From Polaromonas sp. (lineage in GTDB: Bacteria > Pseudomonadota > Gammaproteobacteria > Burkholderiales > Burkholderiaceae_C), in contig JAURWY010000016.1 in the NCBI GenBank assembly GCA_030654695.1, positions 1 to 64,000 of the forward strand: a stretch of DNA of 64,000 nt, given 5' to 3'. The translations under genes and the position numbers were made by a program. Below are positions 5,319-30,672 of this stretch, one piece after another; the stretch's first letter is position 1; each line of letters opens with the position of its first letter. Below the pieces are notes generated by a model. The model did not search any database and was not told the DNA's origin. It saw nothing but the letters and a program-made list of their open reading frames with translations.

Positions 5319-5364
5319 TGGAGAGCTCGTCCATTCACAAAAAGGTGGGGATGCAAGACCTTGC

Positions 5365-5393
5365 TTGTCAGGCCTAGCAACATGAATTATTAT
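5365..5393 (+). promoter_or_regulatory. Candidate boxR promoter with putative BoxR-type element
   Basis: TTGTCA (5365-5370), 17-base spacer, TATTAT (5388-5393). The -10 lies inside ATTATTATGCGCAT (5386-5399), which matches 12 of 14 bases with ATTATTATTCACAT at the boxC promoter (6414-6427) in the same orientation. This is consistent with autoregulation by BoxR. Sequence similarity is seen directly; operator function is inferred. Confidence 0.5.
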
Positions 5394-5403
5394 GCGCATC
5401 TGA

Positions 5404-5432
5404 ACGATAAAGCGACTAAAGCGTTGTGTCAA
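5404..5432 (-). promoter_or_regulatory. Candidate promoter for the leftward box operon
   Basis: Read on the minus strand, TTGACA (5432-5427) is followed after 17 bases by TATCGT (5409-5404). The -35 is perfect and the -10 is weak (4 of 6). It would drive the DUF4863-boxD-bclA-hydrolase-transporter operon. Its start point would fall within the predicted boxR promoter, so the two divergent promoters overlap. This is consensus matching by eye only. Confidence 0.5.
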
Positions 5433-5473
5433 GCACTATATTGCATATCTCAGGGATAACACCGAGCCAACCC

Positions 5474-6364
5474 ATGCCAGAAAAGACTGAAGACAGCGGG
5501 AAAAACCCATTTTTGGTGGCGCTGGGGGAACGTGTGCGTGGCCTGCGAGCTCGTCGCGGCATGACACGCAAGGCCGTTTCGATAGCCGCGGAGGTGTCTG
5601 AGCGTCATCTGGCCAATCTTGAATACGGCGAAGGCAACGCCTCTATCTTGGTGCTGCTGCAGGTGGCGAACGCTCTGCAATGCAGCTTGGCCGAGCTGAT
5701 CGGTGACGTCACCACGCTGTCGCCCGAGTGGCTGCTGATCAGGGAGCTGCTGGAGCGGCGGGGCGAACCTGACTTGCGCCGCGCCCGCATCGCTTTAGGC
5801 GAACTGCTAGGCACCGGCGGCGCGCCTGGCGCGGTCAGCACGCGGGTGGCCTTGATCGGGTTGCGCGGTGCCGGCAAGTCAGCGCTAGGCCAGATGCTGG
5901 CCGAAGACCTCGGCTTTCCCTTTGTCGAGCTGAGCCGCGAGATCGAGAAATTTGCCGGCTGCAGTGTCGCGGAAATCCAGGCTTTGTATGGGCAAAATGC
6001 CTACCGTCGCTATGAGCGCCGCGCCATGGAAGAGACCATCCAGATTTACCCCGAGGCGGTGATCGCCACCCCGGGCGGCTTGGTGTCAGACCCCGCCACC
6101 TTCAATCAATTGCTCAGCCACTGCAGCACGGTGTGGCTCCAAGCCGACCCGGAAGACCACATGAACCGCGTGTTGGCCCAAGGCGACACACGCCCCATGG
6201 CCGCCAGCAAGGAGGCGATGGAAGACCTCAAAGTCATTCTGGCCGGTCGAGCTGCTTTTTACTCAAAGGCGCAACTCACCCTCAACACGAGTGCGCAAGG
6301 ATTGGCGCCTTCATTTGCTTTGCTGCGCAGCCAAGTGCGGGATTTATTGCAGCTGCCGGCTTGA
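5474..6364 (+). CDS. boxR: BoxR, benzoyl-CoA-responsive transcriptional regulator (HTH + shikimate-kinase-like domain)
   Basis: Regulator of about 296 aa with the two-domain BoxR/BzdR architecture. An XRE-type helix-turn-helix spans about residues 15-75 (LGERVRGLRARRGMTRKAVS, then VSERHLANLEYGEGN). After a linker, a shikimate-kinase-like domain begins with the P-loop LIGLRGAGKSALGQ near residue 130 and continues with RYERRAMEE and TPGGLVS motifs. In this family the kinase-like domain senses benzoyl-CoA and the HTH represses box genes. The start ATG at 5474 (MPEKTEDSGKNPF) is preferred over the upstream 5426 codon, which would begin almost at the promoter. It is divergent from the DUF4863 operon and 121 bases upstream of boxC, which it probably controls through the palindromes found there. 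Confidence 0.93.
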   Translation: MPEKTEDSGKNPFLVALGERVRGLRARRGMTRKAVSIAAEVSERHLANLEYGEGNASILVLLQVANALQCSLAELIGDVTTLSPEWLLIRELLERRGEPDLRRARIALGELLGTGGAPGAVSTRVALIGLRGAGKSALGQMLAEDLGFPFVELSREIEKFAGCSVAEIQALYGQNAYRRYERRAMEETIQIYPEAVIATPGGLVSDPATFNQLLSHCSTVWLQADPEDHMNRVLAQGDTRPMAASKEAMEDLKVILAGRAAFYSKAQLTLNTSAQGLAPSFALLRSQVRDLLQLPA

Positions 6365-6391
6365 TTTTTTAGAAAATAGGCAAAAAAGTGC

Positions 6392-6421
6392 TTGACCACA
6401 ATTCTTAATGTGCATTATTAT
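6392..6421 (+). promoter_or_regulatory. Candidate boxCBA promoter
   Basis: TTGACC (6392-6397), 18-base spacer, TATTAT (6416-6421), followed about 55 bases later by the boxC ribosome site. The 13-bp inverted repeat listed separately spans the spacer and the -10, as expected for a repressed promoter. Consensus match by eye; no transcription start is known. Confidence 0.55.
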
Positions 6422-6435
6422 TCACATTAAGAATT
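6400..6435. promoter_or_regulatory. Perfect 13-bp inverted repeat, candidate BoxR operator
   Basis: Arms AATTCTTAATGTG (6400-6412) and CACATTAAGAATT (6423-6435) are exact reverse complements separated by 10 bases. They lie over the predicted spacer and -10 of the boxC promoter. The arms are AT-rich with no GC stem or T-run, so a terminator is unlikely. A single site of this quality next to a dedicated HTH repressor gene is most simply its operator. Confidence 0.6.
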
Positions 6436-6441
6436 TTAAAA

Positions 6442-6459
6442 GATGCAGTTTTTTGCATC
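6442..6459. promoter_or_regulatory. GATGCA-N6-TGCATC palindrome, second candidate operator half
   Basis: GATGCA (6442-6447) and TGCATC (6454-6459) flank a 6-base spacer, giving TGCA-N6-TGCA. TGCA repeats are reported as recognition elements for the BzdR/BoxR family. The site lies downstream of the predicted -10, so a bound repressor could block elongation or clearance. The family link is from memory and should be treated as suggestive. Confidence 0.5.
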
Positions 6460-6485
6460 CCTAACAGCACGACGGAGATATGTTC

Positions 6486-8150
6486 ATGACCACAGCCCTT
6501 GCACCGCGCGTCGAATACCAAACTGACCCGACCCAGTACAAACACCTCAAGCTCAGCTTCAATGGCCCCGTGGCCACGCTGGCGGTGGACATTGACGAGA
6601 ACGCGGGTTTGCGCCCAGGCTACAAGCTCAAGCTGAACAGCTACGACCTCGGTGTTGACATTGAGCTGAATGACGCGGTGGGCCGCATCCGTTTTGAACA
6701 CCCCGAAGTGCGCACCGTGGTGGTGACCAGCGCCAAAGACAAAGTGTTTTGCTCCGGCGCCAACATCTTCATGCTGGGCGTCAGCAGCCACGCCTGGAAA
6801 GTCAATTTCTGCAAGTTCACCAACGAAACCCGCAATGGCTTGGAAGACTCCTCCAAGCACAGCGGCTTGAAGTTCCTGGCCGCTGTGAACGGCGCTTGCG
6901 CCGGCGGTGGCTATGAGCTGGCCTTGGCCTGCGACGAAATCATTTTGGTCGATGACCGCTCCAGCGCAGTCAGCCTGCCTGAAGTGCCTTTGCTCGGCGT
7001 GCTGCCCGGCACTGGCGGCCTGACGCGCGTGACCGACAAGCGCCATGTGCGACACGACTTGGCCGACATTTTCTGCACCAGCGTTGAAGGCGTGCGCGGC
7101 CAAAAGGCGGTGGACTGGCGCTTGGTGGACGCCATTGCCAAGACCGCCGTGTTCGCGCAAAAAGTGCAAGAGCGGGCGCTCGAGTTGGCGACCCAAAGCG
7201 ATCGTCCTGCCGATGGCAAGGGCGTGACAATGACGCCGCTCAAGCGCACTGTTGAAGCCGACGCTCTGCGTTATCAATATGTGAGCGTTGAGATTGATCG
7301 CGCCAAACGCACCGCCACTTTCACCGTCAAGAGCCCGACCGGTGCTCAACCGACTGACATCGCCGGCATCGAAAAAGCCGGTGCCGACTGGTTCCCGTTG
7401 GCCATGGCCCGCGAACTGGAAGACGCGATTTTGCAAATGCGCACGAACGAGCTCGACATCGGTGTCTGGCTGATCAAAACCGAAGGCGATGCCGCTGCCG
7501 TGTTGGCCAGCGACGCCGTGTTGATGGCTCACCAGAGCCACTGGCTGGTGCGCGAAACCATTGGCTTGATGCGACGCACGTTCAGCCGTCTCGACGTCTC
7601 GTCGCGCAGCTTGTTTGCCTTGATCGAGTCCGGCTCATGCTTCGCGGGTTCATTCCTCGAACTTGCTCTCGCCTGCGACCGCAGCTACATGCTGGCCCTG
7701 CCGGACGACGAGGCCAAGGCACCGTCCATCACCGTCGGCGACAGCAACTTTGGTTTGTTCCCGATGGTCACCGAACAGAGCCGACTCGGCCGCCGTTTTT
7801 ATGACGAGCAGCCGGCGTTGGATGCGGTCCGCGCCAAAGCCGGCCAGCCACTGGACGCGGACGCTGCTTTTGCGGTCGGCTTGGTCACCTCGAACCCTGA
7901 CGATATCGATTGGACTGACGAGGTCCGCATCGCGATTGAAGAGCGCGTTTCGATGTCGCCGGATGCCTTGACCGGCCTCGAAGCCAACCTGCGTTTCAAC
8001 GGCCCGGAAAACATGTTCACACGCATTTTTGGCCGTCTGACCGCTTGGCAAAACTGGATCTTCCAGCGTCCAAACGCCGTCGGCGAAAAAGGCGCGCTGA
8101 AGGTTTACGGCAAAGGCGACAAAGCCCAGTTCGACTGGAACCGCGTCTAA
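6486..8150 (+). CDS. boxC: Benzoyl-CoA-dihydrodiol lyase (2,3-epoxybenzoyl-CoA dihydrolase)
   Basis: Crotonase-superfamily enzyme of about 554 aa that opens the ring of 2,3-epoxybenzoyl-CoA and releases formate and 3,4-dehydroadipyl-CoA semialdehyde. The N-terminal half has the oxyanion-hole region FCSGANIFMLG and the core AAVNGACAGGGYELALACDE with LPEVPLLGVLPGTGGL following. The second half repeats a degenerate crotonase-like segment (GSCFAGSFLELALACDRSYM), normal for BoxC. I chose the ATG at 6486 (MTTALAPRV) because GGAG at 6474-6477 is 8 bases upstream; the track's ATG at 6480 is only 2 bases from it. It is the first structural gene after boxR, 86 bases before boxB. Confidence 0.95.
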   Translation: MTTALAPRVEYQTDPTQYKHLKLSFNGPVATLAVDIDENAGLRPGYKLKLNSYDLGVDIELNDAVGRIRFEHPEVRTVVVTSAKDKVFCSGANIFMLGVSSHAWKVNFCKFTNETRNGLEDSSKHSGLKFLAAVNGACAGGGYELALACDEIILVDDRSSAVSLPEVPLLGVLPGTGGLTRVTDKRHVRHDLADIFCTSVEGVRGQKAVDWRLVDAIAKTAVFAQKVQERALELATQSDRPADGKGVTMTPLKRTVEADALRYQYVSVEIDRAKRTATFTVKSPTGAQPTDIAGIEKAGADWFPLAMARELEDAILQMRTNELDIGVWLIKTEGDAAAVLASDAVLMAHQSHWLVRETIGLMRRTFSRLDVSSRSLFALIESGSCFAGSFLELALACDRSYMLALPDDEAKAPSITVGDSNFGLFPMVTEQSRLGRRFYDEQPALDAVRAKAGQPLDADAAFAVGLVTSNPDDIDWTDEVRIAIEERVSMSPDALTGLEANLRFNGPENMFTRIFGRLTAWQNWIFQRPNAVGEKGALKVYGKGDKAQFDWNRV

Positions 8151-30648: not shown

Positions 30649-30672
30649 AAACGGCACCCTAGGGTGCCGTTT
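30649..30672. terminator. Bidirectional terminator between osmoprotectant transporter and glcB
   Basis: AAACGGCACC-CTAG-GGTGCCGTTT, a perfect 24-base palindrome with an A-run before and T-run after, between two convergent genes (5 bases after one stop, 19 after the other). A typical shared intrinsic terminator. Confidence 0.93.

Follow-up and report, generated by a model that had tools for sequence, protein, structure and literature searches.

Long palindrome at the boxC promoter of a Polaromonas sp.: a probable clade-specific elaboration of an ordinary BoxR box

The window examined here is a stretch of 64,000 nucleotides from Polaromonas sp. that contains an aerobic benzoyl-CoA (box) cluster. 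A long palindrome over its boxC promoter very probably belongs to a conserved array of operators as its BoxR box B, with extra arms that lie outside the recognised core, are specific to a small clade and were most likely acquired by template switching. The predicted operators of this cluster are of the ordinary BoxR type, more numerous and better placed than the first-pass annotation of this DNA had seen, and the unusual length of one of them is a young, clade-specific elaboration. The sites, their layout, their conservation and their covariation are described below; six predicted BoxR sites would together control the benzoate (box) genes. They predict, base by base, how the operators of such a cluster are laid out, and the TGCA rule loses an exception that had been proposed for it.

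The Palindrome over the boxC Promoter

The palindrome consists of two 13-bp arms, AATTCTTAATGTG (6400-6412) and CACATTAAGAATT (6423-6435), which are exact reverse complements separated by a gap of 10 bp. This inverted repeat had been described in the first-pass annotation together with a TTGACC-N18-TATTAT promoter (TTGACC 6392-6397, TATTAT 6416-6421) and a GATGCA-N6-TGCATC palindrome just downstream (6442-6459), and all three are present. No other perfect inverted repeat with arms of at least 13 bp and a gap of at most 20 bp occurs in the window, none appeared in 3 Mb of Markov sequence of the window's composition, and 0.0003 such repeats are expected per spacer when the AT-rich composition of the boxR-boxC spacer is used. 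The inverted-repeat scan also returned another, near-gapless perfect palindrome (30649-30672; 11-bp arms, 2-bp gap). If one mismatch is allowed, the boxC arms grow inward to 16 bp (AATTCTTAATGTGCAT/ATTCACATTAAGAATT), an extension absent from the earlier description that exposes a TGCA-type core. The centre of the palindrome coincides with that of a near-canonical BoxR box, TGCA-TTATTA-TTCA, one mismatch from TGCA-N6-TGCA, and the earlier suggestion that the palindrome is not of the TGCA type and that this branch may use a different operator finds no support.

BoxR Motif and Scan of the Window

Scanning 84,980 species genomes and 87 genomes of the genus for relatives gave 90 non-redundant loci. 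De novo motif discovery on 158 spacers, all from relatives that do not belong to the arm-bearing clade, gave the 16-bp palindromic motif ATGCAtTATAaTGCAT, which agrees with the published BoxR/BzdR motif ATGCACTATAGTGCAT, multiple sites of which are found three to five turns apart (PMC6449761). The six best matches among the 64,000 positions are, in order, R1, C, R2, A, B and R3, exactly the three sites at boxR and the three at boxC. Box B, the core of the supposedly deviant operator, is thus ranked fifth by a motif trained without its own clade. Promoter hexamers might have made the motif circular, and this was checked: training on leader-type C sites alone, which have no promoter hexamer inside, gives the same top six. 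When sites were taken at +33 bp throughout, with no selection by score, only a blurred motif resulted because the spacing varies from 28 to 34 bp. Box B (13.7 bits) is a weaker match than R1 (21.7 bits) or C (17.1 bits), and R3 (8.6 bits) stands barely above the best unrelated site of the window (8.3 bits). In Markov sequence of spacer composition the expected number of matches of at least 13.6 bits is 0.017 per 270 bp; the number found is five, and R3 is the sole marginal site. Measured against TGCA-N6-TGCA, C is exact, R3, R1 and B have one mismatch each, and A and R2 (TGAA-N6-TGCG) have two. R1 is the best match to the consensus in its own genome, where besides it only three 13/16 matches occur.

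Layout of the boxC and boxR Promoters

Table 1. Promoters, predicted BoxR boxes and genes from box R3 to boxC (window positions).
Feature	Position	Strand	Remarks
BoxR box R3, predicted, weak	5351-5366	.	ATGCAAGACCTTGCTT; adjoins PboxR -35; rank 6 with both motifs; above threshold in few relatives
PboxR	5365-5393	+	TTGTCA, 17-bp spacer, TATTAT
BoxR box R2, predicted	5382-5397	.	ATGAATTATTATGCGC; over PboxR -10; rank 3; the related element of the first-pass annotation
Leftward promoter	5404-5432	-	TTGACA, 17-bp spacer, TATCGT; serves PnbB-like, boxD and bclA genes
BoxR box R1, predicted, strongest	5431-5446	.	AAGCACTATATTGCAT; overlaps leftward -35; rank 1
boxR	5474-6364	+	repressor; XRE-type HTH and shikimate-kinase-like domain; NCBIfam NF006015 440 bits (cut-off 204); Pfam HTH_3 and SKI
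BoxR box A, predicted	6378-6393	.	AGGCAAAAAAGTGCTT; centre 6385.5; overlaps PboxC -35; rank 4 in 64 kb, rank 3 with C-only motif
PboxC	6392-6421	+	TTGACC, 18-bp spacer, TATTAT
Long palindrome	6400-6435	.	13-bp perfect arms, 16-bp with one mismatch; outer arms clade-specific
BoxR box B, predicted	6410-6425	.	GTGCATTATTATTCAC; centre 6417.5, that of the palindrome; contains -10; rank 5 with both motifs
BoxR box C, predicted	6443-6458	.	ATGCAGTTTTTTGCAT; centre 6450.5; leader; sole exact TGCA-N6-TGCA in window
boxC	6480-8150	+	first gene of regulated boxCBA arm; TIGR03222 965 bits

Boxes A, B and C (Table 1) follow one another at 32 bp (A-B) and 33 bp (B-C), or about three helical turns, a layout common to most of the 76 other loci. 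The A-B spacing is 32 bp in 45/76, with upstream matches at 30-33 bp in 62/76, and the B-C spacing is 32-33 bp in 31/76, with downstream matches at 28-34 bp in 45/76. Spacing by whole turns holds at boxC (32, 33 bp); the R2-R1 distance, 49 bp in most of the 90 loci, is conserved but corresponds to about 4.7 turns.

At the boxR promoter, the element ATTATTATGCGCAT (5386-5399) matches ATTATTATTCACAT at boxC (6414-6427) at 12 of 14 positions, as previously annotated, and the two align exactly on the register of the BoxR box. It was rejected as an element type of its own because it forms one half of box R2 and shares the register of B, and its TATTAT is the -10 of PboxR. R3 and R2 lie relative to the TTGTCA and TATTAT of PboxR as A and B lie relative to PboxC. 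The set of sites first proposed was incomplete, site A over the boxC -35 and the strongest site, R1, over the leftward -35 having been overlooked. TGTCAA stands immediately upstream of R1 in 70/90 loci. The leftward promoter and PboxR point towards each other and overlap (5365-5432), an arrangement that would scarcely allow polymerase on both simultaneously; the boxes and hexamers around them are found again in relatives.

The BoxR protein carries an N-terminal XRE HTH and a C-terminal shikimate-kinase-like domain, and its gene has boxC, boxB, boxA, boxD and a benzoate-CoA ligase gene nearby. The leftward arm of the cluster encodes a PnbB-like protein, BoxD and the ligase, and the rightward arm consists of boxCBA and a MaoC-like gene. 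The recognition region of BoxR, VSERHLANLEYGEGNAS, is identical in the clade and in relatives without long arms, which indicates no change of operator specificity and further weakens the case for a different operator.

Two features of the wider set of loci may be recorded here. The boxR-boxC spacer of L020 is about 700 bp longer than usual, its insert resembling a small opposite-strand gene that, judged by eye, possibly encodes a PIN-domain toxin. Box clusters with similar operator sites (L070, L074, L075) lie in Thiothrix (Gammaproteobacteria) and on a contig labelled Mycobacteriaceae, a placement that suggests horizontal transfer or a mislabelled bin.

Distribution and Origin of the Outer Arms

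The outer arms, defined as offsets 8-18 bp from the centre, are borne by the window locus (W), L088, L001, L002, L003 and L004. Conservation of the arms in close relatives had been put forward as a check on the original proposal; the outer arms are confined to these six sister species, and the core and the two neighbouring boxes are conserved. Complementarity of the arms averages 9.8/11 in the six, versus 3.6/11 in 72 other loci. Although their sequence differs among the six species, the arms stay largely palindromic, and a covariation test on these six related sequences found offsets 8, 11 and 18 altered on both arms in concert.

In L005, on the next branch, the right arm TTAAGAATT is present and the left arm is unrelated; the tree places the gain of arms after the split from L005. 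The right flanks of L018 and L028 are likewise similar to the right arm of the clade, and the right arm therefore seems to have served as the template for the left. In L003, represented by one metagenome assembly only, the core (L003:4901-4990) is inverted between perfect arms AATTCTTGATGTG/CACATCAAGAATT. When flipped, it is identical to the core of the other seven nearest loci (W, L088, L001, L002, L004, L005, L006), and a single event accounts for four transversions. Template switching between inverted repeats is known to result in arm homogenisation and spacer inversion (PMC8604942), and both signs occur here, as the concerted changes at offsets 8, 11 and 18 and, in the one L003 assembly, the inverted segment between the arms. 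The extra palindromic flanks probably arose by such a copying error during DNA replication.

Selection on the outer arms is possible, since the covariation comes from six related sequences and 12 of 720 re-pairings of the arms do as well. That the arms were selected for an added operator function, whether further contacts with BoxR, a cruciform at the promoter or a stiffening of the AT-rich DNA that links A, B and C, is nevertheless unlikely: perfect or near-perfect arms in five of six sister species despite sequence changes, filling the gaps between the three boxes, would fit such a function, but 72 more distant loci, alike in core, spacing and HTH, lack the arms as a set, and the arms are partly decayed in L002 and do not occur in L005.

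It is very improbable that a second regulator acts at boxC through the palindrome. A search of the whole 3.4-Mb genome found no further copy within 3 mismatches, the arms are confined to six species, and the palindrome is exactly co-centred with a conserved BoxR box; in favour of a second regulator are the length and AT-richness, unusual for a TGCA-type site, and the binding of AcpR and AccR to bzd promoters (PMC6678401). Only slightly more credible is an RNA hairpin ending read-through transcripts of boxR. The RNA folds at -13.3 kcal/mol (z -5.8) and is followed by UUUUAAAA, yet the stem is AT-rich and without a proper U-run, the arms are missing in most relatives, and a transcript from PboxC would itself begin within the right arm. 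An intrinsic terminator of boxR was rejected, as the palindrome was not flagged as one.

Proposed Mechanism

Binding, repression and the response to benzoyl-CoA are assigned to these sites by analogy with BzdR/BoxR of Azoarcus (reviewed in PMC6449761; PMC6678401). Without benzoyl-CoA, BoxR dimers would bind the TGCA-N6-TGCA boxes cooperatively. At boxC the repressor would occupy A over the -35, B over the -10 and C in the leader, with three helical turns from one to the next, and would thereby exclude RNA polymerase from PboxC. At boxR it would occupy the -10 (R2) and, more weakly, the -35 (R3), resulting in autorepression, and occupation of R1 would cover the -35 of the leftward operon. Benzoyl-CoA may then bind the kinase-like domain and release the repressor. 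The conserved sites lend support to the first-pass proposal that BoxR represses the rightward arm through the palindrome and also autoregulates.

As to the core of box B and its long arms, the right flank would be the older, and within the small clade the left would have come to be its reverse complement, most likely by replication template switching, and the same process may have inverted the core in L003. Template switching may thus have built an extended palindrome around the operator of a catabolic repressor and flipped the core and -10 in one species with control kept, a reading to which we give slightly less than an even chance. The repressor being a symmetric dimer, the flipped core would still be a BoxR box, and under the same tentative reading one mutation could re-orient a promoter without loss of control. 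The promoters of seven species have their core boxes in common and differ mainly in the arms or the orientation of the core, making the clade a small natural experiment on the growth and flipping of palindromic operators.

Comparison with Known Systems

The sites resemble those predicted for BoxR/BzdR regulons of Betaproteobacteria (Suvorova and Gelfand, 2019; PMC6449761) in their TGCA-N6-TGCA core, in the occurrence of several sites 3-5 turns apart, in their position upstream of both boxR and boxC, and in a divergent arrangement of the cluster, which includes boxD, bclA and a pfam16155 gene. They differ in that box B of the clade has extended AT-rich palindromic arms. The several TGCA palindromes and the related XRE/kinase-like repressor also recall OR1-OR3 of the PN promoter bound by BzdR in Azoarcus sp. 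CIB, where TGCA-N6-TGCA is found in OR2 and OR3 and OR1 covers the core promoter (PMC6678401). Unlike OR1 of that strain, with its spacings of 1 and 15, the three boxC boxes are all of the N6 type with centres about 32 bp apart, and their placement over -35, -10 and leader differs from the PN arrangement. The homogenised arms and the inverted segment between them are like those of template-switched inverted repeats (PMC8604942), although the setting here is a bacterial promoter, with an operator core in the middle able to read the same when flipped.
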